IMG/VR virus record: IMGVR_UViG_3300025128_000091
Location: 1-43,973 of that record
DNA: 43,973 bases
Source of the DNA: a virus
Strand: one strand, 5' to 3'
The notes beneath the pieces are model-generated. The model worked only from the letters and a program-made list of their open reading frames with translations, searched no databases and was not told where the DNA came from. The translations under genes and the position numbers were made by a program. Position 1 is the stretch's first letter. Every line of letters starts with the position of its first letter. Below, in pieces: positions 14,830-40,887 of this stretch.

Positions 14830-15735
14830 TCAACCGCTTGTTAAATGCCAGAAGCCACAACCGCCGCCGCCAACTTGTTGGCAACGATACACAGAGATAG
14901 GTTGACCTGATTGTTGACTCTGATAATCTGCTGCTCGTTGAGCGGCGGCTTGGTTTGAATACTTACCTTTGGAGGGTGTGGGGCAATCTCCTTTGAGCAC
15001 CTCTGTTGGATAATCACCCTTGATTGGTGGAGTAAAACCATGCTGTGATAGTAATTGATTTACTTCACGAGCACTCCTCAAAAAAGGATATTCACCGTCG
15101 TATCTTTCTGCATGTGCACCTACACGTCCTGCTTGTGAGCGAATATCACTATGCACTACTTCTCCCTCATCGTTTCTTTTGTAGCGAGCATGGGGTGGGA
15201 TGTCTTCGTGTGCACCTTCTTCGCCTTTGATGAACCACGGCCCTTCTTGTATCGATGGATGCCATTTACTTCCGTCAGGGTCAACACCACCGAAACCATA
15301 CCACTGTCCCTTTGCTTTACCGGAAGTCCCTTCTTTAGATATGTAATACGGTTTATCGTTAAACATAGCAATTTTTCTTCCAGCGTGTTCTCCTATAGGA
15401 ACAAAGGTATCTTCTTTAAGCAAACGCCAAGCGAGGTCTAGTGGGTTGCCTTTTACAATAGTAGGCTTACCACCAACCCCTTGCTTCTTAGCACGTTTGC
15501 GTTTAGTGGCTGCTTGTTTCTGCCCACCGGTCATCTCACCTGATGTCTTCGGTGTCTTAGAACTTACGCGCACAGATGGACGACACTTAGGATAGCCTTT
15601 GCTCCCCTTCTTTGCTTTACCTCGACCACAGGGTGGATGTTTGCCATCTTTGTCTTTACGAGATACATCGACCCACTTTTCTTTGAACCAACGATTTAGG
15701 TTCTTTACTACAAGAACACTATTTTCGTTACTCAT
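14830..15735 (-). CDS. Basic DUF5872-like protein with W-LLK motif and C-terminal Cys/His knuckle
   Basis: 301 residues, multi-part. Residues 12-83 (FKEKWVDVSR, PPCGRGKAKKGSKGYPKC, ATKRKRAKK) match a Lys/Arg-rich family I know from marine phages and giant viruses as DUF5872. Residues 98-107 carry the motif PLDLAWRLLK shared with the next four genes. The middle (110-235) is rich in Gly and aromatic residues and unassigned. The C-terminus repeats YRC, CGFWHLT, a pattern seen at the end of many phage proteins and likely to bind zinc. Last gene of the late block. A DNA-binding or virion internal protein is plausible; not shown. Confidence 0.7.
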   Translation of the reverse strand: MSNENSVLVVKNLNRWFKEKWVDVSRKDKDGKHPPCGRGKAKKGSKGYPKCRPSVRVSSKTPKTSGEMTGGQKQAATKRKRAKKQGVGGKPTIVKGNPLDLAWRLLKEDTFVPIGEHAGRKIAMFNDKPYYISKEGTSGKAKGQWYGFGGVDPDGSKWHPSIQEGPWFIKGEEGAHEDIPPHARYKRNDEGEVVHSDIRSQAGRVGAHAERYDGEYPFLRSAREVNQLLSQHGFTPPIKGDYPTEVLKGDCPTPSKGKYSNQAAAQRAADYQSQQSGQPISVYRCQQVGGGGCGFWHLTSG

Positions 15736-15739
15736 CTAA

Positions 15740-16141
15740 TCAACCACTTTTCTTTTGATTTTCCTTCGATGTCTTATCATCTGTAATAGGACCGCCTGCT
15801 GCCCAAGTATAACATGTTCTATCTTTATGGCACTTGAAATGATGCATCCAGCAGTAACCTAAATCTCCTTCTAATGGCATGCACTTTTCCATTCTTGGAC
15901 TAATATCAAAAGCAATACAATTACTACAATTAGAGTTCTTAGCAACATCAACTGTTGTGTTCCAATGCTCTGCTGCTCTGACCCAGTAATCTTCATCAGA
16001 TAGATTAAGTGGACCGTATTGAATATGTTCTGAGTGGATTGCTTTGTTTCTGTTTACAGTATTGAGTTTCAAATCTCTGGTGGCCATAGGGCAAGTTTGT
16101 TTTTCTTTAATCAACTCCCAAGCCATATCAAGGGAAATCAT
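15740..16141 (-). CDS. Cys-rich protein with N-terminal W-LIK motif
   Basis: 133 residues. The motif SLDMAWELIK occupies residues 3-12. The rest holds seven Cys: C17, and a cluster C72, C75, C87, C97, C104, C110 (pattern NCSNC, KCMP, GYCWMHHFKC, RTCYTW) that should bind metal (zinc or an iron-sulfur cluster). I have seen similar Cys-rich domains in phage late regions, but cannot name a function. The start overlaps the previous stop (ATGA). Next to other small late proteins carrying the same N-terminal type of motif. Confidence 0.7.
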   Translation of the reverse strand: MISLDMAWELIKEKQTCPMATRDLKLNTVNRNKAIHSEHIQYGPLNLSDEDYWVRAAEHWNTTVDVAKNSNCSNCIAFDISPRMEKCMPLEGDLGYCWMHHFKCHKDRTCYTWAAGGPITDDKTSKENQKKSG

Positions 16142-16341
16142 TTCTTTTTACCTCCCTTCTTGCCTTTCTTACGGAACTTACCACGACAGTATTGCACTGC
16201 CCATCCGTTAGCATAAGCCGAAGGGTAAACTTTGAACTTTCTTTTTGCTGCTGCTTTTCCTTCTGGGCATAGTTTCTTTTCTAAAGTGTCCCATGCTACA
16301 CCCATACCAACACAATGTCCACAGTTACAAAAATCACTCAT
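16138..16341 (-). CDS. Small Cys/Lys-rich late protein (PSAYANG motif)
   Basis: 67 residues from the ATG at 16341; the upstream in-frame GTG at 16353 lies within the ribosome binding site AGAGGTGG. N-terminal CNCGHC, then VAWDTLEKK (15-23, a looser copy of the W-LLK motif). This is followed by AAAKRKFKVYPSAYANGW, which resembles the basic repeat of DUF5872-type proteins (KVWPSAYASG in others), and a run of Lys/Gly at the end. Strongly basic C-terminus suggests binding to DNA or to an acidic partner. Overlaps both neighbours. Confidence 0.7.
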   Translation of the reverse strand: MSDFCNCGHCVGMGVAWDTLEKKLCPEGKAAAKRKFKVYPSAYANGWAVQYCRGKFRKKGKKGGKKK

Positions 16342-16667
16342 TAACAGTTCCACCTCTTTAGTGCAGCACCTTTTGGAGTTAACTTACCTTTCTTACTGGT
16401 AGGTCCTTTGACTCCAGTCATTCGTGCGCAGAAGGATTTACGACGCTTTGCTTTCTTAGAGCCAGTCTTCAACTTACTCGGCTTCGTAGTCACAGGTGGT
16501 TTGAGGTTTGCGCCAGTCTTACGCTTTGCAGCAGCACGACCTTTAGCGTTCAATCCACCCTTCTTACTGTGTTTCTTTGGGTTGTATCCGTGGAAAGGTT
16601 TGGACTTCTTCTTTGCTTTCAGCAAAGACCACGCTTCGTCAAAAGGTTCCATAGGTGTAACTTCCAT
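16341..16667 (-). CDS. DUF6321-like Lys-rich protein with W-LLK motif
   Basis: 108 residues. PFDEAWSLLK at 8-17. The remainder matches a conserved family I know as DUF6321 from pelagiphages, cyanophages and giant viruses: KKGGLNAKGRAAAKRKTG, NLKPPVT, AKRRKSFCARM and a final LKRWNC. Highly basic (Lys/Arg about a third). The reading frame opens at 16691, but the ATG at 16667 has AGAGGT at the right distance and follows the previous stop by one base, so it is preferred. Function unknown; basic charge and late location suggest a virion-associated nucleic-acid binder. Confidence 0.78.
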   Translation of the reverse strand: MEVTPMEPFDEAWSLLKAKKKSKPFHGYNPKKHSKKGGLNAKGRAAAKRKTGANLKPPVTTKPSKLKTGSKKAKRRKSFCARMTGVKGPTSKKGKLTPKGAALKRWNC

Positions 16668-16668
16668 A

Positions 16669-17235
16669 CTAAAAACCTCTTTCGTCGCCATAGCAATCTA
16701 AACACAATCCTCGCATACTCGCCAGTAACTCTGCATTAGAACCTTTATCGTCAATGAGTCGACTGCACCGAACACATCGCTGCTTATTTTTTAACAAACG
16801 CCACGATAAATCCATAGGAGCACCTGTTCGTAGATTACCTTTCATGCGCTCACGCTCAGCATCTTCTTGTTGAGGAGTAGGAGTGCTTGCCGTAGTTTGA
16901 GGAGCGGCTTGAGTTTTACCTTCTCGTCTATCAATTGCTCCTTGAGCGATTGGGCCACGAGTTCGCGCTTTGGCTCTACATCCAGCACATTCACCACTGG
17001 GAAGCAGTTTCATGTCGCATAATGTGCACATATTCGTTGATGGTCCATGAGCAGCATCTCTATACATTTGCGATGCCATTTCAGGAGTTATCTCACCTGA
17101 TTCAACTAAATCATAATATTCATCGGGGTCTATTTGTTTCTTCACATCAGAAGTTTTCTCGGGTTTCTTTGGAGGTTTACCACCAATAGCGATAACCATA
17201 ACAACGCCCGTTTTCTTGGACTTACCTTTTGGCAT
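16669..17235 (-). CDS. Double zinc-ribbon protein with W-LLK motif
   Basis: 188 residues. N-terminal Lys-rich start then a hydrophobic VVMVIAIGG strand. First ribbon: C70, C73 (CTLC) and C83, C86 (CAGC). A Gln/Thr/Pro linker covers about 105-127. The motif PMDLSWRLLK is at 140-149, followed at once by a second ribbon: C154, C157 (CVRC) and C178, C181 (CLDC). Two zinc ions are expected. It starts at ATG 17235, with GGGGTGTGA upstream. Not assigned to a family; nucleic-acid or protein binding is likely. Confidence 0.72.
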   Translation of the reverse strand: MPKGKSKKTGVVMVIAIGGKPPKKPEKTSDVKKQIDPDEYYDLVESGEITPEMASQMYRDAAHGPSTNMCTLCDMKLLPSGECAGCRAKARTRGPIAQGAIDRREGKTQAAPQTTASTPTPQQEDAERERMKGNLRTGAPMDLSWRLLKNKQRCVRCSRLIDDKGSNAELLASMRGLCLDCYGDERGF

Positions 17236-17239
17236 ACGC

Positions 17240-17440
17240 TCACACCCCGCTTACCGCACCGATAGTTAATTGTTCAATGTTACGACGAGGCTTTTGCCAA
17301 AGTGCACCGCAACTAGGACACTCCCAGATGAGTATTCGTCCTCTTTTTTCATTCACATATTTACCTTCGATTCTACGTGCAAGAACCTTATCTCTACACT
17401 GGGGACAATGCTGACTGAGTCTATCCAGCAGTTCTCCCAT
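17240..17440 (-). CDS. Small zinc-ribbon protein
   Basis: 66 residues with C12, C15 (CPQC) and C41, C44 (CPSCGALW), a classic zinc ribbon, in a basic chain. AAGGTGATGAT precedes the ATG and overlaps the previous stop. It lacks the W-LLK motif of the five genes that follow it. Function unknown. Confidence 0.72.
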   Translation of the reverse strand: MGELLDRLSQHCPQCRDKVLARRIEGKYVNEKRGRILIWECPSCGALWQKPRRNIEQLTIGAVSGV

Positions 17441-18811: not shown

Positions 18812-19158
18812 CAGTCCAACTCCAGTATAAACGAGAAGAGAACCTCATTCTGAGCGTTCTTAGTGAACGGTTGAATGTCTGCTCTGTAAACAGGAATAAA
18901 CTCACCTGTGCTTGGGTCCTTGTATTGTAGATACACTTCCTGCACACTATCTGAAAATACATGATTGACTGTAAACGACCCTTCAACGAGAATACTCGTA
19001 TCATCAATTATGCGCACAGTAGGAGTAATTGACGCAAGAGTGCGTGCTCCACCATCATCAGCAGAAGCAGCAGTTCCGTCAGAGCCAATGTGTAATTCAT
19101 TGACGAGTGTAGCGAGGTGCTCAACAAGACGACGCTTGATAGAATTAAGCATCGGCAT
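18811..19158 (-). CDS. Short tail/baseplate protein
   Basis: 115 residues. Helical start (MPMLNSIKRRLVEHLATLV) then a beta-rich domain with LASITPTVRIIDDTSILVEGSF and a C-terminal strand pair ending in FSFILELD. The pattern is like small fibre-attachment proteins of tailed phages. GGAGGG stands 7 bases before the ATG, which overlaps the preceding stop. Sits between the hub-like protein and the fibre-like protein. The family is not certain. Confidence 0.6.
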   Translation of the reverse strand: MPMLNSIKRRLVEHLATLVNELHIGSDGTAASADDGGARTLASITPTVRIIDDTSILVEGSFTVNHVFSDSVQEVYLQYKDPSTGEFIPVYRADIQPFTKNAQNEVLFSFILELD

Positions 19159-21284
19159 CAGATTGCCCTCCTTGTTGGTTTACTCTTTACAGTGCGCATT
19201 TCGTGACTTCTTGAACGCAACATGCGAACAGAACCGCTTGAGCCTATGCTACCACCGTTTGGTGCACGCACGCTTATGCCTGTGAATGTTGTGGCTGTCT
19301 TGCCTGTATATGTGGCATGTATCGATTCTTCGATGATTAGATGCCCCGACGAAGGGAAGCCTGTTGTAGAAGTCACAGCCAGTGTAGTAGAGGTAAGTCC
19401 AGTGTGCGCAGTTCTAGGAGTTAGTCCTGTTCCTACAGCACTTCTACCAGCATCTGAACCATGGTTAGGTCCACGATGACCAATAAGGAAGCCAGAGTGT
19501 AAATCAGGGATTGTGTTGACTAAAGTGATAGCACCGTCACTAGCACCACTATATGTGGTGCTGTTACTAACAACAGTATTAGTTCTTGCTAGTTTACCAA
19601 GAATGAGTCGTCGCATGTAGAATCCTCTGACTCGTAAGTCACCTCTACCTACACCTGACTTTTCTAAACTCAGCCTCTGAGATGTTCTATCGTTAGATGA
19701 TGAGCCTATCGCACTCGCATCTTGGAATGCCATCATAATACCTTCAATACCTCTATCGTAAGATAGCATAGTTAAATCACTCAAACCTGTTTTTAGATTG
19801 TGCTCAACTTCAACAATGGCTTGCTTGAGAACTTCTCCCATCTCTGGGTTTTCATATAACACAACCATACCCGGTTCAAGGTCCCATGCATACAAGTTAC
19901 CCTCGCTGCTAAGAGCACCTTGCCCCTTTCGATTCAACCTCAACAACTGAGCGGCGTTTCTTCTTGCGGCTGATACTGTAGTGGCAGTCGGGTCATCATT
20001 AGTAATTGACTTAACAGACCCATGTTTCTTTTGCAACTCTGCATCATCAACAACTGCTTCGATAACATCGTTTAATGCAATGGCATCTCCTCTAACGATT
20101 ATCCTGTTTGCAACCTTAGCGACAGGGTCAATCTGAGTATTTGTTTCTCCGTGCTTGGTTCCTATTTTTCTATCTGTAATCATCATTACATCAGGACCGT
20201 AAATGAAGTTTCCAAAGCGGTCATAAAGAATAGCGTAGTGGTCGTATCTTCCAACGAATCGAACAGCGCTAGGTATAGTTACACCTCTAAAATCCTGCGC
20301 AAGGAAGTTTGTTGAGTGACGATGAGATTCCCCCTTATTGGTGGTAGACGAGCCTGTTCTACTTCCAGTATATGGTAGACCAACGCTGATGCTATTGAGA
20401 GAGTGTTGAACATCTTTGAAGATTCTTTGAACAAGGTCAGTTGTTCTCAAACCAACAGACGCTAATTGACCAGCATGGACATGTGTATCTGTAAACGATA
20501 AATCATCAAGAGAGCGCCCATACATATTTTGTAGTGTTAGTCTTGACCCTCTCGTTGCAGTCTCTACTGCTTTAGGTCTGAGTTTATCTGATTCACCATG
20601 TAACAACATTGGAGGTGTTGCAGTGCCACTGAGTGATGATGTTTCAAAGAAGACTGTTGTAGAATCATTGATGCCGGGAACGTCAGCATATGTGAGTCTA
20701 ACCGCACTTTCCTCCTCAATCAACCTGTATCTTCTTTCGGCAGTTACTTGGAAATCACTTTGGGCAAATCGTTTCAATGCAAGGTTTTGACCTGTAGTGG
20801 CGCTGTCTCTTATGTAGATAGCATGATGAATTCCGTTGTCGACTAAGACAGTCGCTTCAACAGTAGACCCGACACTGCTTCTTATGTTGTCGTCTCTACC
20901 TGTTGAAGACGATGCAGAAGAGGCTGAGTGAGGTGATGGTGCATGCGCACCGCTAAAACTAACAACAGTTGTGTTTGCAAGATTAGATGTTATCGTAGTG
21001 TTACCAGATGAGCCGGGTGTCTTTTGAGTTAGTGTTAGAACATTGTCTGCACGAGAAACGAGTATCTTACCATTGTGTCCTGATGCGTGCTCTATTGCTA
21101 GTTCAAGTGAAGTTGCAACATCGTTGTTGGTATTATCAATACTGAATTGATTGGATGCAAGGGTAGCACTCCCTGCTACTGCTGTGTATGTCCTAGATAC
21201 AGCATCTCCTGATATGAGCGTTATTTGCTGACCTGCTGATGGTTTCCCCGCAGCGATTGTAATAGAAGCAGTAGCAGCGGTCAC
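19158..21284 (-). CDS. Tail-tip / baseplate hub-like protein with N-terminal shared module
   Basis: 708 residues. GTG start with a perfect GAGGTGAT ahead; the GTGA overlaps the stop of the giant protein. Residues 2-113 are a copy of the recurring virion module (AIEHASGHNGKI, LTQ, GSSGNTTITSNLANTTV). The middle contains an AVRFVGRYDHYAILYD strand and then a stretch with LRLNRKGQGALSSEG, LEPGMVVLY and VEHNLKTGLSDLTML, which is the order of gpD/gp27-type hub proteins. The C-terminal part has a TLAVTSTTGFPSSGHLIIE repeat typical of tail beta-sandwiches. A hub or tip role is inferred from this and from order. Confidence 0.6.
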   Translation of the reverse strand: MTAATASITIAAGKPSAGQQITLISGDAVSRTYTAVAGSATLASNQFSIDNTNNDVATSLELAIEHASGHNGKILVSRADNVLTLTQKTPGSSGNTTITSNLANTTVVSFSGAHAPSPHSASSASSSTGRDDNIRSSVGSTVEATVLVDNGIHHAIYIRDSATTGQNLALKRFAQSDFQVTAERRYRLIEEESAVRLTYADVPGINDSTTVFFETSSLSGTATPPMLLHGESDKLRPKAVETATRGSRLTLQNMYGRSLDDLSFTDTHVHAGQLASVGLRTTDLVQRIFKDVQHSLNSISVGLPYTGSRTGSSTTNKGESHRHSTNFLAQDFRGVTIPSAVRFVGRYDHYAILYDRFGNFIYGPDVMMITDRKIGTKHGETNTQIDPVAKVANRIIVRGDAIALNDVIEAVVDDAELQKKHGSVKSITNDDPTATTVSAARRNAAQLLRLNRKGQGALSSEGNLYAWDLEPGMVVLYENPEMGEVLKQAIVEVEHNLKTGLSDLTMLSYDRGIEGIMMAFQDASAIGSSSNDRTSQRLSLEKSGVGRGDLRVRGFYMRRLILGKLARTNTVVSNSTTYSGASDGAITLVNTIPDLHSGFLIGHRGPNHGSDAGRSAVGTGLTPRTAHTGLTSTTLAVTSTTGFPSSGHLIIEESIHATYTGKTATTFTGISVRAPNGGSIGSSGSVRMLRSRSHEMRTVKSKPTRRAI
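20946..21281 (-). repeat. Shared virion module, copy 2 (hub-like protein)
   Basis: Residues 2-113 of the hub-like protein. Short form of the module: lacks the DGTxKDYFISD strand but keeps SRTYTA, AIEHASGHNGKI, LTLTQ and NTTITSNLANTTV. It is closest to the copy in the middle of the giant protein. Confidence 0.7.
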
Positions 21285-24200
21285 GGAATCACCTCATTAT
21301 CAGTATGGTCAGATTCACCAGAGTGACTACTGGTGTTCTGTTTATCACCCGGATAAACACTCTGTGTGTATCTCGGTTGAACTGAGAAATCTTCACGGAA
21401 TACTTCACCCCTATCAGTCTTTACAGATTGTCTTCGTGAAGCATCACCTCGGAAGTGTTGCAGTGTGTTACTGGTTGTAATTATACGCGCTACTGTTTGA
21501 CGCAGACTATTACTGAAACCAGTAACCTCAGAGCCCGGTATTACAGGACCGCTGCTTGTTGGAGCAGCATAATCTGTGGTAGCGAAAAGATAGGTGGGAG
21601 CATATGGAGGGTTTGTCGGTGATGGATTACTTGACCTTACATATCGTCCAGAAGAGGCGCGAGCGTTAGGAGCATCATACATGTATACCCCGTATTTTCC
21701 ACCAGCAGTTCCTGCCAAAGCATTTGTTTGGTCACGGAATATTTCGATATGACGATGGTCAAGAACGCGCACAGGACGTAGCAATAAACGAAGAAGACGG
21801 TCTTGGGTATTCGTTCTAGCATCATCATCTCCACTACTAAAACCACTTACAGTTGTGTTTGCTACATTTTCTGTAATTGTAACATTACCTGCTGACCCAA
21901 CAGTAGCCTGAGTGACTGTAATCGCTTGATTACCGTTTGCTTGAGTAGGAACTGCCGAGACAGTAATTTTCCCATTGTGTCCGTTAGCATGTTCTATTGC
22001 TGCTTTGAGTAATACAAGGAATGCGTTTTGTGTTATTGAAGAACTTACATTGAATCCTACAGATATACCAGTGGCTCCAGATGTAAGGGAGGCTGTAACA
22101 GAACCTGTGGATTTGAGAGTAGCACCTGCTGTTACAGCACTTAAATGGGCCACTCCTCCATCATTGGTATCTGATATGAAATAATCCTTAATCGTGCCAT
22201 CGGTGCTAGTAAGAGTAAGTTTAGTCCCAGCAGTCAAACCATGCGCTGCATCACCATCGGCAACAGTGATTGTCCCAGTCGCAGGAGACGCAACTGGGTC
22301 GTGATTATTGGTTTGGTAAGGATTACTACTGTCGCCTGTTTGAGAGCCCCAGCCAGAATCACTGATGGGCTCCATGTAATTCATTAGGTCAAGAATAAGA
22401 GTTCCTCCCTGAGACCATAGACCATGAGTCATATTCAATCGCATCACTTGCTTAAATGATGAGAAGTTTAGTTGCGTCAAATCGTAGTCAGCAACTGCTC
22501 TAGTATCTGTTTTGATTCCAGCCGCTACTATGTATCTTCGTCCAATTGCACGGTCAGTGTGCAGGCTGTGAGCCTCTGATGATACCGCTACAAACTCTTC
22601 ACCAATACCACCATCAAACTCTGTAACAGTCATTGCATCAAGACCAATACGTGGAGATGAACGAGAGATAGGGTCTTGTAAGAACTCGTCTGCTGGTGCA
22701 AGCGCTTCTTTCGCTTTCTCAACATTAGAGCCAGCCATTGCTTCTGGTTTGAGCAAACCATCATCTGCTGCTACATCGAGTGTGCTACTGATTCCTCGTT
22801 TGAGTTCGTCTGAGGCTAATGCTGTGTTCTTTGGTCGAATGTAACCTGCTCCTACAGGAGTTTCTGATGTATGATGAGATAGAACGTGACCAGTAGGAAC
22901 ACGCACTGTATCCATCGATTGAAGGACATCCTCGTTGAACACTGTAGGCCATCGAACACCACGGCCATCACCACGGTCTCCTACACGTTTTGCTGTAGCG
23001 GGGTCAAACAAATCTCTAGTTGCTCTTGAATCAACACCCGGTGCCGCAAACACTTGAGCAGTTTTCGTTCTGTCTGTCGCACGATAAGCATCTTCTGGGT
23101 CCCACGATGGTCGAATAGCAAAGCCACGCACAGGGAACTTGCGCACTTCCTCTCCGGTGGTATTACCCCACCAATCAATAATGTAGTGTGTTACAGCAAT
23201 TGCGAGATTTCTACGTTGATTTACCACTGTGGTTGATGTGAGTGAGCCAGCGTTTGTATCTCCTTGGTGGGTAGGAATAACGGTATCTGGATTGATGATG
23301 TTTCGCACTGCGCACCCATATGGTTTGGTCATTCTTCGACCATGACTGTATCGAACTTGTTGTATCTTGAGGTCTGACCCAGTCATGGCTGCGGCGTTAG
23401 TTGTTCTCTCAAGAACACCTGTGTAAGTTGTCGCTGTTGTAGCAGTTGAAGTAGACGCAGAACTACTACCTTCTGTATAAGTCGTGGTTGTTCGACTATC
23501 ACTTTGAACAAATGGACCGGGGTGATAACCAGAATGAGTATTCGCATACGGGTCTGTTAAAGCGGCTGTTGACCAGACAGCCCATCGAGGTCGATTGAAA
23601 GGCTGACGGACTCCAAAACGATATCCGAACCCTTGGTTCTGTAACGTCAAAGTAGATGCGTTGACTGTAGTAACAGATGAGCCATCTGAACCACTGTCTT
23701 TGTAGATAGTGAGGTCGTCCCAGTATTTACCCCAACCGGGCGCTGCTGTGCCCCATAATGTTAGTGTGCTCATATGTGCGCCAAACCTAGAGCCACCCGG
23801 CCAGAATGAACCAAAGTGATACTTCATGTTGCTACCCGGAAAAGAGTCAGTGTGGGCTTGTGGTGGGTATGCAGCATTGAAACTGTTAGGGTCTGTAATT
23901 ACACCGCCTGCTTGGTCCCAGTGTTTTGCTCTGAAATCAAATGGCCCATCACTTGCTGCATAAACAAACTCATGATAATGAACAACTTCAAAGTGCTCTG
24001 GTAAATGATTGTAAGGACTCTTATCTACAGCAGCATCATCTATGTCTGTTCTTGAATCAGAATAGTAAGTCATAGGTCTACCCAAATTGTAGTGCCAGAA
24101 ACATAAGAAAGCATCAGGGACGTGAAGGCTGTTTGTATCACGAGTGCCAGAAAGCAACTGAGGTAAGTTTCTTGAGGCAATACTTCGGTCAGACTTAGTA

Positions 24201-27200
24201 AAAACTTCACTGTGCGCAAGATTACCATAAGCACCAGTAAGTCGTAAGACTGTTCCATCTGAGATGTTTGACCAGAAGTCAGCATCAGCAGATACTCCGA
24301 TGAATCGATTGGTGGTTGTTGTTGCTTCACCGCTAGTATATCCTCTACTTGAGTAAGTTGCTGTGTGAGTTCTACCTGTAGAATCAACATAGGACAATTT
24401 GTGATTCCAATAGTCTCTTCCAACAAGAGGAAACAGGTCATTGTTTGTTACAGCGATAACTGCATCTTTTGTGGTGTTCGCTGTTGTCTCTGCTGTAATG
24501 GTTCTACGGAAAGTGCACGTTGGTGTAAGACTGCTATACTCATGGATGTAAGGGTCAAGATAGTAAGTAGGATATCCAGCCAGTGTAATCTGAGAGCCGA
24601 CCGAACCGAGAGTGCTTCGACAAAAATGATAGTAGTCGTCAGGGAAGTAATGCTCTGTCTTTCTCCAAGGATTTGTGCTGTAAATAGTGCTTGATTTGAT
24701 TGCAGGGGACCACCAAGGAACAGTCACAGTATAACCCGGTGTAGCCTTACGGAACATATTCGGACGATATGGTAGAGACCGACGAGTAAACGCACCTGAC
24801 GTGCTTTCATTTACACCCAACGGATTGAACAAACCAAGTGCTGGGACACTTGTAAATTGTTGACCGGGAGCAGGGTCGATATCAAGAATCATTTCGTTTA
24901 GGTAAATCTCACAACCGCGCACATCTGCCATTGTTGCCTCTGCGAGGATAAGGTCGTAGTTAGCACCACTCCACTGAATAGCGATGACTGTGTTTACTTG
25001 TTGGTCTGTGAGTGTAGGATACACAGTGCCAGTTGGTGCTCCTGTAGCCCCAAATGTTTCATTTGCATTGTTACCCATAAACTGCTGAGCAAACAGGTTA
25101 GGTTGGATAATAATCTGATATGCGCCTACTTCTAATGGGTCAGGGAAGTTCCATTGATGTTTGTAATTAGTTCCTCTTTCCAATTGGATTCTATGCCCAC
25201 CTGTAGAATTACAAGTTGCAGTTCCATCTGCTATTCCATACCCATCAAATCTCAATTTAGTTTCAAACATCAAAGTGAAACCATCACCATGTATATCTGA
25301 TGGTTTATGCGCAGATGTGAGACTTGAAAACCACATGAGAGCATGAGGGCCTACTGTATCTTTCGTGAATATAGTTGTATCAGTTCCGTCAGAATCCTCT
25401 GTGAGACCTGCTGTAATTATTGCGCTACCACTCAAATCTTCAACACTTTTCACTGCTGCTGATGAACATGCAAATGCATTAGTGTATACTCGTTGATACA
25501 ATGGATGTGCGAGATGACCGGGCATCATAGCCATTGTTGGTGTAACATAGTGATGTCCCATGCGAGGTAGAGGCATTGGTGTAAGACGGTCGCCACGAAT
25601 TACTGCCGTAGGTGCTGTTGTTGACCCTACTGTCTGCCATTGAATGTTCTTCTTATCTGGGCTCTCTCCACTTACCTCAGCGTGGTCACGTAATCGACGA
25701 GCAGCGAAGTGACGAGTTGTCCCAGCAGGTATGTAGAAACCGGGTTTGATTGTATCTCCGTTACTCGCTGAGAAGCCGGGTGGAAATACACATCCAGTAA
25801 AAGTAGAGCCGCTCACATTGGTATATGAGACCACAAAACCATTGACGACAAGGAAGTATCTACCATCAGGTATCGCCTCTTGCCTCCATACAGTTGTGCT
25901 AACTGTTCCATTTGCTGTAAGCACGCTACCACTGTGTGATACAAATGTGCGCGGGTCGTGAGTAATCGCCCCTGCTCCACTAATGTAAAGTGGTTCACGA
26001 GTGCTGTATGTGCTACCAACTTTCGTTACGTGGAAGTAAAGAGACCTATCATGAGGCTCATAGGATGTAGATAGCGGATTGGTGCTGTCGATGTTACCAC
26101 TTCTACTATCAGGGAAGGAATCAGGACGAGAATCAATTCTTTCCCATCCTTCGTTTTCCCAGAACGGTCCATTATTTGGAGCATCATTTTCACTGTTAAA
26201 GTTGCTCAAAACCGTAGCATCTGGCAATGAAGGTCTTTGGATACCACCACTACCCATTGTCTCATGTTGATATCCTTGTAGTCTATCGAAACCTGAGCGA
26301 ACGAGAATATTGCCCGGTATGGTATCTGGATTAGGTAAACGGATTTTTAGATTAGGTTCATTGCCTGAACCAGCAAGAGCAGGTGCAAGTCCCTGTGTGT
26401 CTCTATCTGCCACCACTTCAAAGTCTCGAATAACCACACCAAAGGGAGACCCTCCCTCTATTGTATGCAGTTGACCTGTATCATCTACTACATCCATTTC
26501 AAGAAATTGTAGTTCTTCGTTTGGAATAGTAAGAGCATTCTTAACTTCATAAGAGTGTTTTTCTGCTAATTGAGGATGAGCAAGTTCCTGCGCTTGAATA
26601 ATTGGCAACATCGAAGCGTTAGTTGTTTCAAACGAGAAACGAACATTGCCGTAGATGTTCTCACCAAACTTAACATACGAACCTCCTACCTTTCTCCACA
26701 CCCACGGAACAGCACCAAGACCACGAGCGTTAGGAGCAGGGAGGCAAAGATTACCACCACCCATTCTCTTCCATACAGCGTGCTCAGGGAAGAAGTTTCT
26801 TGCAGCGCTTCTATTTGCCCAATACTTTGACGCACTATGTGTGTTAGGGTCATCACCGTAAGTCAAGAAGGGAGCACTACCTGATTGGCAACTTCTCTTA
26901 AGAGTTTCAGCAATACCTGTAACTGTATTTGCAAGCATCTCATCTGCGTGCATAGAAGAGCCGGGATTGATATCTGTATCAAAGAAAAGGTCTCCTGTAG
27001 GGAACAAGCATGTATCCATTTTCTTAGTTAGATTTCCTGCTGCTCCAGCCCATTCACCGTTTTGGTCTGTGGCTGTTTGTTGGAAAGGAGGATAGTGTAT
27101 TCCTGTATTTGTAAAAGTAACTTGAGCATCTATATGTGGCCCACCATTAGACCAAGCGACATAACGGTCAAGATTGTGCCTATTGTTATGAGATGTAATT

Positions 27201-30200
27201 ACAGTTCCAGCATCTCCATTGGCTCTCCACTTTTGTCCTATGTAATCTCCAGCGAGAACAATACCGTCTCGGTCAGCCTTTGCTACTATAGGCAACTCTC
27301 CTTCATATGAGACTACAAGATAATGACGACCATGAAGACCTGTAGGACAAGATGTGCTCACAGGAGTATAAGTGTAATTGGGAGGGTCTGTCCCATCTTT
27401 CGTTACAACGTATGAAGGAGAGTTCAATGAATGGCATTGTGTGCTCACACCATAGGGATTGAAACCAAGAGCAGGGTGCCATGCTCCAAGACCTGCGCTT
27501 ACACCATTTCCTACAAGCAGGCTATTGAGATATGAATATCTTTCACCATGCCAGCCAATTGCACCAATAGGTCGAGTGCGGTCAATAGCATCAACAACCC
27601 CACTGAAATGCACATGAGTTCCAGCAAGTCCATCGAATATCGAACCTACATTCATGACTGCTGCGTTAGCAGCAGCGTAAGTTGGTAGAGGAGCAGATTG
27701 CGCTTCTATAGAAACTTGAGCGCCGTTTGACCAACGATGATGACCTGTTTGTGTCCAGACAAATATCTGATATGTATCAGATAGACCAGTTATGTGACTA
27801 TGGCTAGTCCCTTCTGTTGGGTCCTCAGGAAAGTAGTTACCAGTTCTGTAATTTGCCCCCAAATAAAATCGAGAATCAGTTGGATTATATCCATAGTAAT
27901 ATGCATACATGAATTCTGGATTGGTGCTTCCACTTGTGCGCAGAAGCCTCAACCAACCCTGTGATGGAAGACTGCGTGGGAGTTGACCTACACTATTTAC
28001 ATCAATGTAACCTCTGCTATTATCATCTGAGAATAAATCTCGACCTGTGTTGTTATCGATTTGACCAACGTGTGTCCATGCGTATCTATCTTGTTTTGAT
28101 GCTTCTTGGAAAGACGGCAAGAAGGTCCCACCAAGAGCCTTTAGGTTTCCTTCACCCGGCCATGAGTTAATCGCCGCTGCAATAATCGCTGCCATCTCTT
28201 CACTGTTTTGGCATCGCGTTGCATCTACAACGAAAACGTCACGAGCAGTATCACTCTCTGAAAGACCATAATCATAGGCTGTAAGCGCGAGTGCTCCTAC
28301 TCTGAACATGGTAGCATTTCCGTTTAGAATAATGGTATTACCGCCTGTGGCTGTTGTTACTACTGTTGTGAACTTTGCAGTTACAGTAGCACCAGAAACA
28401 GGATGTGGTGGGTTCTTGCGCACAGCATTGTCGAACCAGTTACCACCTGCTGGACAACCCCCATCCATATGATATAGAGCACGATATACAGCACCAGACA
28501 TAACACCATGAAGTCCTTGGTCATTAACTTCATAGAAAGAATAAGGGTGAGATGTCCCTAATCCAGCAGTATTCTTTGATGCTCCAAAGTGGTTGGTAAT
28601 CAAAGAGCCATGAAGAGCATTGTCTTGGCTAAAAGTTCCTTTAGGTGAGCCGTATGCTGGCTCCCAATTTCTTAAAGTGTTGAACGGGTAAGCAAATACT
28701 CTTTGCACTGATAACGCCTCAGGAAGATACATCAGTGCATCATTTTTGATAGCGTTAGGTAATTTAGCGTCAGCAAGAGCACTGCCTGTAAAGTATGTAT
28801 CACCCGTGCTAAATGGATTACCTTGTCTACCTACACTGTAGATTCTGCCCCAACCTGCACTCAAATCAGCGCTATTCATACTCGATGCAACACTTGGCTC
28901 TACTGCTGTTTCAAAATGCTTAGGAGCAGATTGCCCCGGTCCAAATATTACATACGCTACTTCATTTGCTGCATCATCGTAACGAGCGTAAGGATGAGCA
29001 AAGCGCAAAACTACAGGTATTGGCTTAGAGACAATAGTGTTACCATAAAGTGTATTTTTGTTTGCACTTCCCGATGGGTCATGACTATCTGTTCCTGAAT
29101 CCATATCTGTATGAAGAATAGCATCTGCGTTAGCAAATGGTGGTGCATCCTCTCCTCTATGTTGGTCAAGAGCATGAGTTCCGGGGAACATAGCCATTAT
29201 TGCTGTAGTATCTATAATCGCATGAGAGCCCATGTTCTCTCCGACGTTTTGTAAACCTGCGCAACCTGTAGGTCCACTGGAATATGGATGACTCATAACT
29301 TCCGTGTAGTCATTTTGAGTTCCGTCGTTAACATCCATAACCACGCCACTAAATCCACCACCGAAATACAAAGGCACACTGTGGTCAGGACTATCAGAGG
29401 CTCCTCTAAAATATGTAAGAGGCTCCCCATATGTGTTACCTGCAAGACGAATGCCATCGAACTTACGAGCGTTGGTTGTATCCCCCCATCTGTAGATGTA
29501 AGCGTTAGTTACTGCGGAGGCTGCAAACTCATTTTGTTCTGTGAGTATGTATCCGAAATAGTGAGTATTGTTACTCTCACCATAATCACTGAGAGGTTGA
29601 GCAAGAGCATATCCTTTATCACTTGACCATATCAATACCTTTTCAACAAACGATAAATCGGCTGCATTACTGAAAGGCTGTGTTCCCATATTAGTTCCTG
29701 CAACATGCTTCCTCCATGCTTCATATCGACCAAGAGGGCCAAAGGTAAAGATTCCATGAGACGCTTGCATTGCTATTTCATGAACAGCATGCGAAGTAGA
29801 GTAAGTTCCATGTGAGTAATCGTATCGAGTTCCACTGTTGAATGATGCTGGTGTATGACTTCTTGAACATGGGCCATCAATAGCAGGAAGAATATGGTCG
29901 CCGGGGAACCTTGTATAGAGTTCTCCACGAAGATGGCTGCGCCAGTTGCTTACATCTACTGCATTATTTGCACTATCTACGAGTATGGGTGTCGCTGTAT
30001 TGGCATTAGTTCCTCTATATCGTGTTGTAATATTGAGAACTGTCTTTGGAAGATAACCAACATCGATTCGCATACCAGCATCTATTTCCGCTCTGCTCAA
30101 ACCTCCAAGATGGTCGTTACCGTTTAGGCTAGTGCCTCCACCATCAGATGCAGTGCTAGTAACACTCCCATCATATAGACCCCAATCTACATCTCTGCGC

Positions 30201-33200
30201 ACATCAAAAAGGTCTCTCAGTGGAGTAACTTCTGACTTAGAATTGAATGTTTTGATGTGTATAGCAGTTTGAGCGCCATCGCCCATAAGTTCTCCATATG
30301 TTCTACCTGTAGCAGTATACAAATCACTACAATCGAAATAAGACCCGTCCCCGTTAGGATTTACAGTCATTGCGTGTTCCACAGCAGCAGCAATTAATTC
30401 ATCAGTAATGATAGAAGTTTGATTTAGAGCAGGGCTAATAAGAATAGGTGAGTCACCCGCTGTATCATTGGCTGGGCCTGTTTCAGAACTAAAATATGAA
30501 GAAAGCGTTTGACCTGTTACACCTGTAAAGGTCATCGTTCCTGATGCGTTATTATGAGTGCGACCAGTATAAGACAAGACAGTAGACGCACCACTTGTAT
30601 ATGCTGTTCCACTTGGTTTTGTTACAAGCAATAAACCAGAATCAGGAAAACCAAGCCACCCTAAAGCATCTAGACCACTGGCTGTTGGTAGGTCGTGCCA
30701 GAGAGTGCTGATAGTTAGGCTAGTTCCAGATACTGAAATAGTGCACGCATAGGCGTTTTCAGGAGCACGAACACCACGCCACAGGTTACCTCTCCATGTT
30801 GGGTCGGGAAGGTCGTAAGGTCCCATTGGGTAAGTAGCACCTTTCATGTTTTTTCCAATAGTAAATCCACCTTGTCCTATGTCTCTATCATCAAAGAAAA
30901 CAATTGTCTCGTTCTCTATTGTGTTAGGAAGAACTGTGCGGTCATTTACGAAGGGTTTCCCACTCTCTCTGTATACAAATCGAATTGTATGACTTTTACC
31001 ATTGTGGTCTACAAATCTAAATCCGTAAAGAGAAGAGTCACCAATCTCATTTGTTTTAACTTCTGATGTAGGAACGTGTGATGAATATGACGTTCCACCA
31101 GTAGTAGCATATATCTTATCGAATCGTCCGCCGTTGTTATTTTCTCCAAGTCCCCATTTACCAGCGTCAGGAGCCCAACCCGGTATACCAGATGCCACTA
31201 GACCTCCAAAATTGATACGAGAGCGAGCCTGAGTTCCAATGCGTAAACCTTCTACAACAGTTTCTGAAAGACCCTGTTTTTCAAACGATTCAGCATTGAG
31301 TGTGTTTGCAGAGCGACCAGTTGAAACCTCATCTATTGTATCAGAATAAGAACTAGAAACACTATCCATATTGGTATCAGAATCAAATCCTTTGTGTAGA
31401 TTGTTGATGAGGTCATCAGCATCTTCTTCTTGAGGAAGTAATTCTCTAAGAGTAGTAATAGGAGCAAATGGCCTTCCATCTTTATTGATAGGCATAGGAG
31501 CAGGATGCATATTTTCTCCAAGCATTTCGTTCGGCATACACCAAAAGTTACGGAATCGACCACCATGCCCTACGAGGAACTGAGGGCGATAGAGACTCTG
31601 TCCGCGACTATTGTCTAACCATGTGCAGAAATTACGACCAGATGCTCCGGGCACTGTGCTATGAATAACAATACTGAAACCTTCGTTACCGTCCGCATCT
31701 ACAACAACACGACCAAGATGTGCGCGTAAATATCCCATGTGGCTACCACGGTCGAACGAAGTAAACGCGGTATCATTCCAGAAAGGAGCAGGGTCGTGTG
31801 TGCTACCTGTAGCAGAAAAGTCAGCATGATGATGAGTTGCTGTTGGGTCCGTGGGTATGTTTGACTCAACTCCGATTGTTCGATTATCAGGACGTGCAGT
31901 GATACCAAATCTTTCTCCTTCACCAACATATTGGTCAGCAGGACGACGTTGATTACTGCGACCGTTAAGAGCACCTGCTTGATTAACTAAGCGAACAACT
32001 TCACGAGCAGCAGCCTCAATATCAGTTACACCTTCTTTAACTCCAATTTCACCGAGGTCAACACTAAGACGCCTAATGAAATCTAAATCTGTCCACTGTG
32101 GGAGATTACTTAGACGAGAATCTGTTAGTGTGAGTGTATTTGCCCTCTTACCTTTAAGACACAGGAATGCTGGTATGGCTCTTGTTCCTTCTGGTGTATC
32201 GAAAAACGTAGATGAAAATCTGTATCGAGCAGCATTAGATGATGTAACATAACCTGATTCAGTGCTTGCAATAAAATTAGCATGTCTTGTTGCAGCACTG
32301 CTGGCTGAGCAAACGCTGTTTTCTAACCTATCAGCCCCTCCTCGATGAGGAACATTAGAAGACCCGTAGTCGAGGTAAGCGTTGTTACCACGAGTCAGTA
32401 TGTTTGTTCCGCTGGTTGATGTAGTATTATGACCTAAAACAGAGTCTTGGTCAATAAAGAACCAAGATTTGTGCGCATATGCCCCCTCAACAAACTTAGA
32501 ACGACCAGAATCCGACATAGCAATTTTAACATCGCCACTAATGACTGTTCCTGTTCCACCACCACTATTGGTTCCTACCATTGTGATTGAACTGCTTGCT
32601 GTATCATTATTTTCGTTACCGACAGGGTCGTTGGTTCGTATTTGTGAGTGAAAACCAGATGCAACATCAAGTCCGTTTATTTTTGGCGTCATCTGACTAC
32701 TTTGAACCTGCATGAATAAATCATGAAAAGCGATAAACTCGCGGTCGTGTTGAACATCGTAAAGCAATACCCGAGCGTGTTGTTCTGTGCTCAAATATGG
32801 GTCTAAGAAAGCGACAGTAGGAGCGTTACTCAATCCAAGCATAGAGTAGTTTTCTTCAATTGTTTTGTTTATGTGTTGAACAAAATTACGTGCAGTTTCA
32901 ATACAAGTGTTTCCAATAAGGAAGTTTTCCATTGGGATACTGTCTCTTGGCATTGCAGCCATTGCACCTCTACCTCCATTGAAACCATTCCATACCTCAA
33001 ACTCATTGAGCACACCACGACTCTTACAGAACATACCATCGATGGCGTGGGGATTAGTGTAATGCATATTCATCCAAACAGTATCACCATATCGTAAACC
33101 ACCCGGAGCATATCCATTACCCCATGTTTGATTTACAACTCCATCCTCTACTCGGTCACACGCACCATCTGCGCCCCCAGAAAAATTAGTAACTGTGCAG

Positions 33201-36200
33201 TGGTCTACATTTTCAGTAATTGATGTATTTCCTGATGCTCCTTTAATGACTTGAGTAAGTGTTAATATGTTGTTACCCGTTCCTGTGCCATCAGAACTAA
33301 GTGCGACTGTAATTGTTTCAGGGTGCCCGTTGGCATGCTCAATACAATTTTTCAAAGCCAGAGCCTTATCATCAGCATTATTACCAGTTACATCAAATTG
33401 CAACGCAGAAGCGCTAGAAGACCCTTTCGCAGTATATGTCCTTGAAAGACCTGCACCATCTATGATGACTATAGTTTGGTCTGCTGATGAATCAGTATCT
33501 GTGAAAATTATAGTTGATGTTGCAGCCGTAGAACTGCGCGTAACCCCTCTTAGCGTCAGACTACCGAGAGTGCTAGTAATGGATGTTGACCCACCAAAAT
33601 GACTGAAAGGGATTACTGTGACTCTATCAATATTAGTAGAGGACGCATATTCAACGCTATATGTTTCACCGTTTTCATGCACTGCTTCATACACGAAACC
33701 AGATGAGAGAGCACCAAGTGGTATCTTGTCTCCTTCAAATCTATACACATTGCTACCAAGATGTTCCAAAAGTGTAATGACTGCACCTCCAGATTCAATG
33801 CGTGCAAGATGTGGATTCTGACGAGGACCAGCCTTGAATTCAACTGCACTCACATATTGACGTAGACCATAGTCAATATTGCCGCCTTGAGTCTGCACGT
33901 TAGCCCTATCATGATAGTAAGAGCGACGGAACTCACGACCTGCCGACGACGAAAACGGGTCATCTCGTATAGGAGGAGAGATATCATCAGGATAAGATGA
34001 AGATAGAAACAAAACTTCTCCATCTTTCAAGTCCTTGAAGAAATCTGTGGATACCTCTAACGGGCTTCCTGTGATAAGGATTCTTTTGTTTGTTCTATCC
34101 AACTGAGTGTATATCATCCACTCACCGTTTGAGCGATACAGACGACGTATACGGATATCATCTTCACCAAAACGAACGAGACCATTATCTGGGTTAGAGT
34201 CTGGTAATCGTTCTATGTTATCGATATAGATGTGTGAAGCATCCCTATCGACTCTAACTATGCGCACACCGTGTCTATCATCTCCTTCAACCCAACGACG
34301 ATGATAAGAAGCCATTACTTCTCGGTCAGCAGGAGGAAGGTCAGTGCAACGACGACCAACAGGATTGGGTGCCCATGTATGTGCTGTGAGCGTAGCATCT
34401 AAGTGCAACTTCATGCTGTTATCTGGTCCGGGGAAGATGCCAGCATCACGGTCTTCAAAGAATTGTTGAGGGAATAGAGGGATTTCAACGAGAGCACGAG
34501 TGCTGGCATACTGTGTTCCTAACTGATAGTCATGAGTAACACTTCCAATAGATTGGAACATACGGTCGTTTACTGTAGTTCCATCATTACATACACTCTC
34601 TTCATTAAACAACGGGTCAAGCATGATGAGACTACCATCTGATATAGCGTTACTAGCCAACCCTGTCCAAGCAGCATACGTGTCTGATTCACTACCATCA
34701 GAATTGATGAATCGACCAGTGCCTAAACTTCCTGCTGAACCAAAGAAATAGAAGGAGCCAGCAGTGGTTTTGTAATACTCTCCGTTTGCTCCTGATTCAA
34801 AATATACACGTCCGCGAGGTGGAAAACAATACGTTCCCCATGAGGCAAGAGCATCAGATTCGTTATTCAAAGGAACAACATCAATTTGACCCGGTGATGC
34901 TGCAACGACATCAGTCACTCTTACAGTGCAATCTTTTCGTGTTGACCATCCTAATCGAGACAACACACTTGGGTCCCAAGTTGGTTTAGTATTCACTGCT
35001 CCTTGACCGGGGCCACCAAGAGTTACAGTTACAACAGGAGCATCAGGACTGAGTTCTTTGATTAGATGTGAGTTAGGTGAGCCATCACCTGTAATGTTGA
35101 CCTCTGCTCCTGCGATATCATCCATCAAACCTGTAACTTGAAGAACAGATATTGAGCCGATATCAGTTGACTCATGCTTGAATGAAGACACTCTACCTCT
35201 AGTTTGTAGATACTCAATCGAAAATACAGTTGGGTCTGTGTTGTTATCTACTACACTCACAACCTTAGACAGTTGCATACAACGAGTTCTCGATGACGGT
35301 TGTAGAATGATATGTATGTTAGCGTCTTGTTTGAAATTATCAATTATATCATACACTTCATATGCGTGTGTGGATTGAGACGTAGTTCCTAGATTTCCTG
35401 ATACAGCAGTCATCTTATAAGACGATGCACCTAAATCGATTGACTCTTTTCTATCAGATGCCGCATGAATTATCATTTTGTGATAGACAGATGGATGTGA
35501 TACAGTGTCTGCGTTTATGTTTACTGCTATGGGTCCGCTGTTAGCAGGGTCTGTAGCAACACTTGGTGTATAGTTTGAAGGTAATTTACTCAAATCTAAT
35601 TCAATCTCATTTTGAGAACCACCTGTATTGTCTCCCACTAACTTATGAGAGTCCAACGCTTGTGGATTGTTTCCTATGTCTCCCTCAGGTATGATTATGA
35701 CTCCACCGGGAGCATGCAAAGTTCGACCCGAAGATATAGATGATGCAATAGTGGCTCCTACCCTCTTACTGTTAATGAGAGCACCAGCGTGTGGAACAGT
35801 CTTTTCTACGATAAGACAAGGGCCAGAGGTCCCCATTGTAGTTCCAAGAAGGTCAACAGCGTTGTAATGTATTTCGATGTATGGAAAGTCACTGTCTCCT
35901 GTTTCTAATATTGCAACTCTTGACTCTGACTCAGGAGTAAGATGAAGATTGTATACATCATCAGTCGCTACGACATTCTTAGTCCCATGACCTTTGAGAA
36001 GAAAAGGAGTAACATCAAACCCACTTCCTCCTATTGCAATAATATCATCATCTGATGCAGTTATACCAACAAGTCCGTTTCTTATTACTTGAACAACAGT
36101 AGATGATGTTACGACATCTATTGGTTTTCCTCTGAGCGCTTCTCTGTAAACTGAAACTTTACTGTTGATAGGAAGAGCAGAACCAATGCCTTCGCCATGA

Positions 36201-37705: not shown

Positions 37706-37709
37706 AGTA

Positions 37710-38894
37710 TCACAAACCTGCAATGAAATCTAATGGTTGGAAATCAATTGTAGCACCATAGATGGTTTCACCAGCATCATATGTGAGTGTAACACCAACA
37801 ACAGTCCCACTGATACCAGTCATTTTATTGTTAAAATCAAAAGTGCTTGATGCAGGAAGATTGTTCGCAGAACTTCCCTGTTGGATTGCTGTAACTGCTC
37901 CTGTAATAATAAGGAAGTTTCTAACAGCGTATCCATCAGGGTCTGTCGATGCTAAATCTGACTGCACCAGCGAATTGTAAGGTATTTGGATACCTATGAT
38001 ATAGTCATCATCAGTGTTGCTGGTATAGTTTATTGCTTGACCTAAACCACTTTCTGGGTCGGTAGCATCAGTTCTGATAACAGCCCCCATTGCGCCTGTT
38101 ACATTGCTATTAGCAACATTTGCAATGAGGTCTTGCGCTTTATCTCCAGCAGATTTACAACTATGAGTAGAACCACCACTAAAACCAGTTGTTCTAAAGT
38201 TCATTCCTTCTCCTAAGTTGAGATGTATAGGTGTATTTCCACCAGCCCCTGCTTCTTTTTGGACTAACTTAATTCCAGATACAGATGCATTGAAACCGTT
38301 AATTATACTCACAGTAAAAGCAGAGCCAAAGGTGTTTCCTCCTGTAGAAGTAACATTTGTGCTAAATGTCCCAGTGTGACCAGTCATTGCAGCATTCATT
38401 CTAGTAGCAACCTCTGCTCCAGTAGTTATTCCGTTGATTCCTACTGTAAGAGTCATTCCTGAAACACTATGAGATGCAGTGCTTGTATCGAACTTTACAA
38501 ATATAGTCGTTGAAGACGATAAAGATGCAAGATGTGTGCTTTGAAGTTTGAATTGTTTACCATTCAAATCAGCAATTGGAACATCTCCACTATCGGCTGA
38601 TAAATACAAATAACTTGGAGTATCTTCTGTTGTAGTTACACTCACAGCCTTTGAACTAAAGTCTAATGTTGCTTCTGCTGCGTTACCTGTGGGGTCTAAA
38701 CCACTACAATCGTCATCTCGGAGTATAGCATTTACACGAATAACAGCACTTACCCTGTTATTATCAAAGCCAGTGCGCTCACCTGTGTGTGGAAGGGGAA
38801 AGGGGGTTACGCTTTTCTTAAAATCAAGCGTAAAATCGATGGCATCAATGTTTACAATCTCAGAGTTTTGCTTAATCAGGCGTATTCCAACCAT
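37710..38894 (-). CDS. Distal-tail (Dit)-like protein with inserted module
   Basis: 394 residues. The first 60 residues (MVGIRLIKQNSEIVNIDAID, then FTLDFKKSV) and the last 60 (GISGTVVGVTLTY, YGATIDFQPLDF) look like the two halves of one beta-sandwich interrupted by a diverged copy of the shared virion module (residues about 92-242, ending GAGGNTPIHLNLGEGMNF, FSGG). Lies directly after the tape measure gene, the normal place of Dit in siphoviruses. ATG overlaps the previous stop. The Dit call is from location and fold pattern only. Confidence 0.55.
   Translation of the reverse strand: MVGIRLIKQNSEIVNIDAIDFTLDFKKSVTPFPLPHTGERTGFDNNRVSAVIRVNAILRDDDCSGLDPTGNAAEATLDFSSKAVSVTTTEDTPSYLYLSADSGDVPIADLNGKQFKLQSTHLASLSSSTTIFVKFDTSTASHSVSGMTLTVGINGITTGAEVATRMNAAMTGHTGTFSTNVTSTGGNTFGSAFTVSIINGFNASVSGIKLVQKEAGAGGNTPIHLNLGEGMNFRTTGFSGGSTHSCKSAGDKAQDLIANVANSNVTGAMGAVIRTDATDPESGLGQAINYTSNTDDDYIIGIQIPYNSLVQSDLASTDPDGYAVRNFLIITGAVTAIQQGSSANNLPASSTFDFNNKMTGISGTVVGVTLTYDAGETIYGATIDFQPLDFIAGL
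38169..38621 (-). repeat. Shared virion module, copy 4 (Dit-like protein), diverged
   Basis: About 150 residues. Keeps the block order (strand-rich start, helix MNAAMTGHTG, strand VSIING, then GAGGNTPIHLNL and FSGG) but little exact identity with the other copies. It has GHTG where the others have GHNG. Confidence 0.5.
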
Positions 38895-40591: not shown

Positions 40592-40593
40592 TA

Positions 40594-40842
40594 TTACCAC
40601 CCCTTACTATACGGCATCGGCCCACTTGTTCCCGCTACAGGGGCACCGCTCTTGGAGTCTGCGGTTGCTTTCTCTATTTCTTCTGCCTTGATTTCTTCCG
40701 CAGCAGCAGCCCAAGCGAACATTTGCTCAAACTCATCTTCGTCTAATTGTTTCAAATCAGACATGCTCAAACCATAGTGTTTCATCAAAAGATACTGCAT
40801 GGATTCCATGATTAAACCCATGTCGCTATTTTTACCTCTCAT
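40594..40842 (-). CDS. Tail assembly chaperone, T-frame (probably made only by frameshift)
   Basis: 82 residues from the first ATG. Helical and acidic, with MQYLLMKHYGLSMSDLKQLD and a FEQMFAWAAAAEEIKAEEIE run, like lambda gpT-type chaperone parts. Unlike nearly every other late gene, no ribosome binding site precedes its ATG. The frame is open upstream through the G-frame stop, back past the slippery site at 40881-40887. A -1 shift there would give a 215-residue G-T fusion (120 residues from G, 95 from this frame). It would bind the tape measure protein during tail assembly. Confidence 0.8.
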   Translation of the reverse strand: MRGKNSDMGLIMESMQYLLMKHYGLSMSDLKQLDEDEFEQMFAWAAAAEEIKAEEIEKATADSKSGAPVAGTSGPMPYSKGW

Positions 40843-40847
40843 AAACT

Positions 40848-40887
40848 GGGAGACCGATTCTACTCGCTCTCCCCATCTTCCAAAGGG
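40848..40887 (-). promoter_or_regulatory. Programmed -1 ribosomal frameshift signal (slippery heptamer plus hairpin)
   Basis: On the minus strand the G frame reads GGC CCT TTG. The heptamer CCCTTTG (40881-40887) fits the X XXY YYZ rule exactly. After a 7-base spacer (40874-40880) comes a stem GGGAGA / TCTCCC (40868-40873 with 40848-40853), extended by CGA/TCG after a G-G mismatch, with a 6-base loop that includes the G-frame stop. Slip by -1 continues into the T frame. Spacing and structure are as expected for tail assembly chaperone frameshifting. Read directly; not tested. Confidence 0.82.

Follow-up and report, generated by a model that had tools for sequence, protein, structure and literature searches.

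The locus described here raises the question of why neighbouring late genes, the products of which are otherwise unrelated, should carry the same short peptide. The window, by which we mean the whole stretch of DNA that was analysed, corresponds to a single IMG/VR virus record and comprises 43,973 bases. Its plus strand encodes an archaeal-type replication set, the members of which we take, from our own reading of the sequences, to be a clamp loader, a single-strand binding protein, a family B polymerase, a primase, a nuclease and a thermosome, and the last part of a late operon is on its minus strand. Magroviruses, the viruses of marine Poseidoniales, show the same arrangement, in which a family B polymerase, a clamp loader and a chaperonin share one strand and the late genes occupy the other (PMC10768690), and the window is a 44-kb fragment of a tailed virus of this Poseidoniales ("magrovirus") type. 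Head genes are absent from the fragment, and the tag-bearing cluster (14830–17235, minus strand) is located at the convergence of the two strands. More than a third of the record is occupied by a single open frame of 16.4 kb (21281–37723, minus strand; 5480 aa), counterparts of which comprise 5307 aa in record G004 and 5387 aa in record G018. This frame and three further genes of the tail region (19158–21284, 37710–38894 and 41635–43923, all minus strand) contain a common repeated module of about 100 aa with the pattern ..IEHANGHNGKITVS..LTQ..GNTTITENVANTTV..FSGG.., as if one adhesion-type domain had been reused across four tail proteins.

A six-frame scan of the window with the pattern D-x-[ASGC]-W-x-[LIVM]-[LIVMT] returned exactly four matches, all on the minus strand from 15418 to 16812, in genes that had been named in an earlier note on this DNA (Table 1). 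That note described a W-LLK motif in five late proteins; the canonical form D-x-[AS]-W-x-[LI]-[LI]-K is present in four of them, whereas the copy in gene 3 is degenerate, with no Asp at the right place and a score of -15 bits on the motif profile. Homologues of gene 3 in two other loci (L032 and L041) read MTPMDESWAVLKELCEAGKKAAKRKF and MTPMDESWAVLK at the corresponding position, and 12 of 38 homologous ORFs contain a canonical motif somewhere in the frame, so that gene 3 has either lost the canonical form by decay or never gained it.

Table 1. Tag-cluster genes of the window and the motif copies within them.
Feature	Position	Strand	Description
Tagged gene 1	14830..15735	-	301 aa; DUF5872 (residues 12-84), internal motif NPLDLAWRLLKED, WYGFGG-type domain, C-terminal domain
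Motif copy 1, PLDLAWRLLK	15415..15444	-	six-frame scan; 28.1 bits on profile
Tagged gene 2	15740..16141	-	133 aa; Cys-rich domain, N-terminal motif
Motif copy 2, SLDMAWELIK	16106..16135	-	six-frame scan
Gene 3	16138..16353	-	71 aa; basic PSAYANG domain, degenerate motif VAWDTLEKK
Tagged gene 4	16341..16691	-	116 aa; N-terminal motif and DUF6321
Motif copy 3, PFDEAWSLLK	16617..16646	-	six-frame scan
Tagged gene 5	16669..17235	-	188 aa; CxxC pairs on both sides of internal motif
Motif copy 4, PMDLSWRLLK	16789..16818	-	six-frame scan; 21.0 bits on profile

The domains beside the window motifs are DUF5872, DUF6321 and unclassified Cys-rich or basic segments. The Pfam matches of gene 1 to DUF5872 (3e-11) and of gene 4 to DUF6321 (3.3e-17) are above the curated cut-offs, and gene 3 gives a weak match to DUF5872 (0.0035). 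The WYGFGG domain of gene 1 is found directly after an N-terminal motif in loci L173 and L079, and the sole match of gene 1 in a tblastn search of a phage collection was to the DUF5872 stretch of a Prochlorococcus phage. The motif is carried by 16 of 37 ORFs homologous to gene 2, by 13 of 24 for gene 5, by 19 of 60 for the DUF6321 protein of gene 4 and by 23 of 75 with DUF5872. As only part of the homologues are tagged, either these domains also have roles that need no tag, or the tag is dispensable. For the next late gene (17240–17440, minus strand), which encodes a small zinc-ribbon-like protein of 66 aa, the tag was seen in none of 18 homologous ORFs.

Homologues of gene 1 provided 80 loci, which together with that of the window contain 108 motif matches in stop-to-stop frames, and as many as eight of these occur within 14.5 kb. 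Searching 30 whole records with a DNA version of the motif gave approximately 88 sense matches, confined to one strand per record, versus 0 for the reversed control, and across all viral loci 376 distinct motif copies were counted versus 1 for the reversed motif. A motif profile, trained outside the full-record loci, was applied to 21 records comprising 1765 genes; 125 genes are tagged versus 1.5 expected from reversed and shuffled proteins, and three of the 125 are false positives in DNA polymerase B (PFDEAExLAKHLT, without the Trp). A chance origin of the motif is ruled out by these reversed and shuffled controls. The earlier note had proposed such a search and allowed that the motif might be missing from homologues in relatives; it is found across the related viruses, on many domains. 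No tag was seen in records G007 and G010, but this is not evidence of absence, as their contigs end near the DUF5872 gene, at which the tagged cluster starts.

The tag is one 12-residue peptide, roughly M-T-A-F-D-x-A-W-x-L-L-K (for example MTAFDTAWDLLKAP, with variants), and is borne by up to 17 late proteins per genome, a count from records picked by homology to gene 1, and partly for having matches, that do not form a random sample. The fuller consensus of the 376 copies is M-[TSN]-[AP]-F-D-x-A-W-x-[LVI]-[LVM]-K-[AMEG]-[PD]. Two lineages of these viruses favour different forms of the motif, one being F-D preceded by A, V or T and with M, V or L at the position of the second Leu, the other P-[FMIL]-D with L at that position. 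The helical hydrophobic moment of the nine-residue core is 0.53, versus 0.32 for shuffled sequence. Most copies (302 of 376) are N-terminal, just after the Met, nine are C-terminal (for example KAMDDAWLMLKGR) and the rest are further in; some proteins have two or three copies. A form with one extra residue (SSFDAAWDSIAKE, KPFAVAWDSIAKE) is seen on a kinase-like family (L256, 2432–3220; G023 gene 87, in L119), and this longer variant is possibly tolerated by the receptor. No conserved Glu-type protease site of the T4/gp21 type follows the motif in the 376 copies; any cleavage by the S78 protease might be at a different site.

The predominance of copies just after the Met would be expected of an N-terminal expression or stability element, for instance a favourable translation start segment spread between genes by recombination, as would the moderate codon bias within the motif (e.g. 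CTC 0.43 versus 0.16). We consider this highly improbable, since synonymous codons vary in the motif, conservation upstream is limited to a Shine-Dalgarno-like run, and the motif also occurs internally, at the C-terminus and in multiple copies per protein. The varying codons and the displaced and repeated copies point instead to selection on the peptide. A repeat or promoter cassette at the DNA level was also considered and is ruled out by the same variation in codons and by the ribosome-binding run being the only common upstream element.

When the motif is masked, the 122 tagged proteins of the 21 records fall into 84 families, and the 599 distinct tagged proteins of all loci into 238. Within one genome the tagged proteins are almost all unrelated (17 of 17 in G020), and an alignment of 115 diverse carriers retains only MxxFDxAWxxLK. 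The proposal that the motif is placed on otherwise unrelated proteins is thus borne out, and the 84 families left after masking exclude the common descent of one fold, an outcome for which the earlier note had allowed. Many carriers do lie in neighbouring genes, and single-linkage clustering joins 171 proteins through shared domains, as might be expected if the carriers were one rapidly diverged family with the motif as a remnant of a shared fold. This reading is contradicted, however, by carriers of the ADP-ribosyltransferase (ART), kinase-like, ParB, methyltransferase, NUDIX and DUF6321 types, which are different folds or families, and by the position of the motif outside the folded domain in the ART and kinase models; it is hardly credible.

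The tag was also suggested earlier to mark small basic or metal-binding proteins, and to these it is not confined. The median length is 188 aa, acidic proteins outnumber basic ones (49 versus 17 of 115), and many carriers are predicted enzymes. Profile searches identified GP88, D12 DNA methyltransferase, NUDIX, TFIIB-type zinc ribbon, DUF5872 and ParB domains and a weak GNAT match; a recognisable domain is lacking from many carriers, and two or more are present in few, fusions such as gene 1 being a minority. One family of about 40 members or more with the signature HGTTxxRxxxIMxxGLxP is predicted to have an ADP-ribosyltransferase-superfamily fold, on the basis of an AlphaFold model (pLDDT 81) for which the best Foldseek matches in the PDB are KptA/Tpt1 (E 1e-4, probability 1.00) and of sequence support at 3e-4; tblastn with this carrier gave no match in the phage collection. 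Kinase-like carriers have conserved K, E, D/N and D residues (HPxDxxFVVKxP, GDRxxxNxGxD, FDxD), and a Foldseek match to RIO2 kinases has a probability of 1.00. As the underlying model is poor (pLDDT 66), the kinase assignment rests on the conserved residues together with the Foldseek matches. A homologue search for a second kinase-like family led nowhere. In both types of model the tag residues form a detached part of low confidence, with pLDDT of 54 for ART and below 50 for the kinase. Several carriers thus have effector-type enzyme folds.

The genomic position of the tagged genes is strongly biased. Terminase, portal, S78 protease and an SU10/HK97-type capsid protein were identified in G020 and traced in other records, and homologues of terminase, portal and protease are present in each of the 20 records besides the window fragment. 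A protein of 1148–1803 aa is encoded between portal and protease. The capsid-gene strand holds 115 of 121 tagged genes versus 894 of 1610 others (Fisher p=3e-21), and three of the six off-strand genes are the polymerase false positives. In many records the largest tagged cluster is directly upstream of the consecutive terminase, portal, protease and capsid genes. Smaller groups occur towards the tail end next to DUF5872, the arrangement seen in the window, and tagged genes are also found between terminase and portal (G004) and beside the portal (G024). All eight ART-family and all five kinase-like genes of the 21 records are on the late strand. An early-strand ParB (G004) and an early-strand D12 methyltransferase (G001) are without the tag, a late ParB (G016) and late methyltransferases (G023, G024) are with it, and the late methyltransferase genes of G020 and G022 are without it. 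Inside the tagged cluster, an HMG-CoA lyase-like gene (G020 gene 35, 21202–22071; G024 gene 36, 40101–40967) has no tag, so location alone does not confer one.

A short tag common to unrelated late proteins predicts a docking role, and the docking site could in principle be a viral hub outside the particle, such as the viral chaperonin, the packaging motor or an intracellular site of assembly, with the carriers acting in the producing cell. Late expression would agree with this, as would the presence of a thermosome-like chaperonin in every tagged record longer than 60 kb except G018. At a late stage of infection, however, host-takeover enzymes would hardly benefit the virus unless they were carried into a new cell, and a chaperonin client signal is not expected to be one strict motif with invariant Trp and Lys. 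A non-virion hub therefore appears unlikely.

The tag is constant while its carriers turn over fast. Among the tagged genes 60% have no homologue in the 20 other records, a share that falls to 38% for early genes and to 14% for the remaining late genes. A close comparison is offered by record G024 and contig 2 of the Poseidoniales single cell AG-422-I20 (L277, L324 and L325), which share 95–96% DNA identity over the terminase-portal region and in which most shared proteins are 93–100% identical. The AG-422-I20 contig has an extra tagged gene, missing from G024, inserted beside the portal gene, and one tagged gene of G024 had no match in the searched stretch of the contig. The near-identity of the two also ties these viruses to a host among the Poseidoniales, which are abundant marine archaea.

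Viruses commonly use short linear motifs to hijack host hubs, and the tag might likewise bind a host protein, as a degron or a clamp- or polymerase-binding motif, and recruit its carriers to a host process. The N-terminal pattern gave 21 single matches in 257 Gb of bacterial and archaeal genomes, where approximately 15 are estimated by chance, and the sole clear case among the 21 is the AG-422-I20 virus contig. In 194 genomes of the host order, F-D-x-A-W-x-x-x-K occurs three times, once in this same virus contig. The motif is essentially absent from cellular genomes, including those of hosts, and is virus-specific; its chance-level frequency in host genomes indicates that no host motif is being copied. 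Binding to a host protein is quite improbable on these grounds, and also because the carriers are late and not early genes.

We favour the reading that the tag is a cargo-loading signal, by which late cargo is recruited to the assembling head, packaged and ejected into the next Poseidoniales cell, and give it a probability of roughly 0.6. Delivery by the particle would agree with late synthesis, with the closeness of the tagged genes to those of the head, with their rapid exchange and with the presence of enzymes of the kinds that injected effectors often are. The tag would act as a short linear targeting signal, an amphipathic helix of about 12 residues, and all late-made cargo would be brought by it to one receptor within the head during assembly. 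The most likely candidates for this receptor would be the scaffold-like tail of the prohead protease, which is charged and, in our own reading, partly coiled-coil-like, or else the HK97-type capsid protein, on its inner side. Once packaged, the cargo would be ejected into the next cell, which it would disarm or reprogram. Helix-mediated binding, the receptor, packaging and injection are steps that we infer. That a position-independent address code of 12 residues loads a rapidly exchanged effector arsenal into the head for the next archaeal cell has, in our estimate, slightly better than an even chance of being correct. To our knowledge such a cargo code would be the first from archaeal viruses.

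If the tag is indeed a mark of virion cargo, a functional class is gained at once by 599 distinct proteins (about 240 families), and sequence alone would suffice to recognise hundreds of uncharacterised proteins as injected effectors. The effectors that archaeal viruses use against an uncultured host could then be catalogued from metagenomes, a short and genetically portable tag would be available for loading proteins into an HK97-type head, and these viruses would provide a comparison case with T4 and encapsulins for cargo acquisition by HK97-lineage shells. None of six motif strings was found in the papers searched on these viruses, the sole literature match being an unrelated one in rice breeding, and the ICTV profiles consulted for Poseidoniales viruses make no mention of a shared tag or cargo system (PMC10768690, PMC13108676).

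Magroviruses and other Poseidoniales viruses (Magrovirales and Adrikavirales) have replication and morphogenesis genes in two opposed clusters, and an HK97-type capsid protein, protease, portal and terminase (PMC10768690, PMC13108676); the viruses described here share these opposed clusters and this head gene set. The domain repertoire of the carriers overlaps that of the polyvalent proteins of phages and conjugative elements (Iyer et al. 2017), in which ART, ParB-like and metallopeptidase-like domains occur in late or packaging contexts and are proposed to be injected with the DNA (PMC5512222). Polyvalent proteins join several disparate domains (2–15) in one chain, whereas the carriers are mostly single-domain proteins with one short tag, which by analogy appears to be a different solution to the same delivery problem. 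Encapsulins take up unrelated cargo enzymes by means of a short peptide, placed at one end of the enzyme or the other, which the lumen of their HK97-fold shell recognises (PMC7355545). An HK97-type capsid protein is present in the viruses described here too; encapsulins, however, are cellular compartments, whereas the carriers are encoded by late genes of viruses.

T4 internal proteins offer a further parallel, in that a capsid targeting sequence (CTS) of about 10 residues is found at the N-terminus of several different late head-cargo proteins, and in T4-type phages this cargo, of which the ADP-ribosyltransferase Alt is a member, is ejected into the host cell and differs from one related phage to another (PMC9026906). 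Both systems place one short sequence on several otherwise unrelated late proteins, and in both a prohead protease accompanies portal and terminase in the same virus, as in G020. The tag differs from the CTS in its archaeal hosts and in its consensus, which is unrelated in sequence, in its internal, C-terminal and multi-copy occurrence and greater number of carriers per genome, and in having no conserved gp21-type cleavage site after it. The mechanism would be that of a capsid-targeting tag, unrelated in sequence to the CTS, used in archaeal viruses on an unusually large and exchangeable set of proteins.
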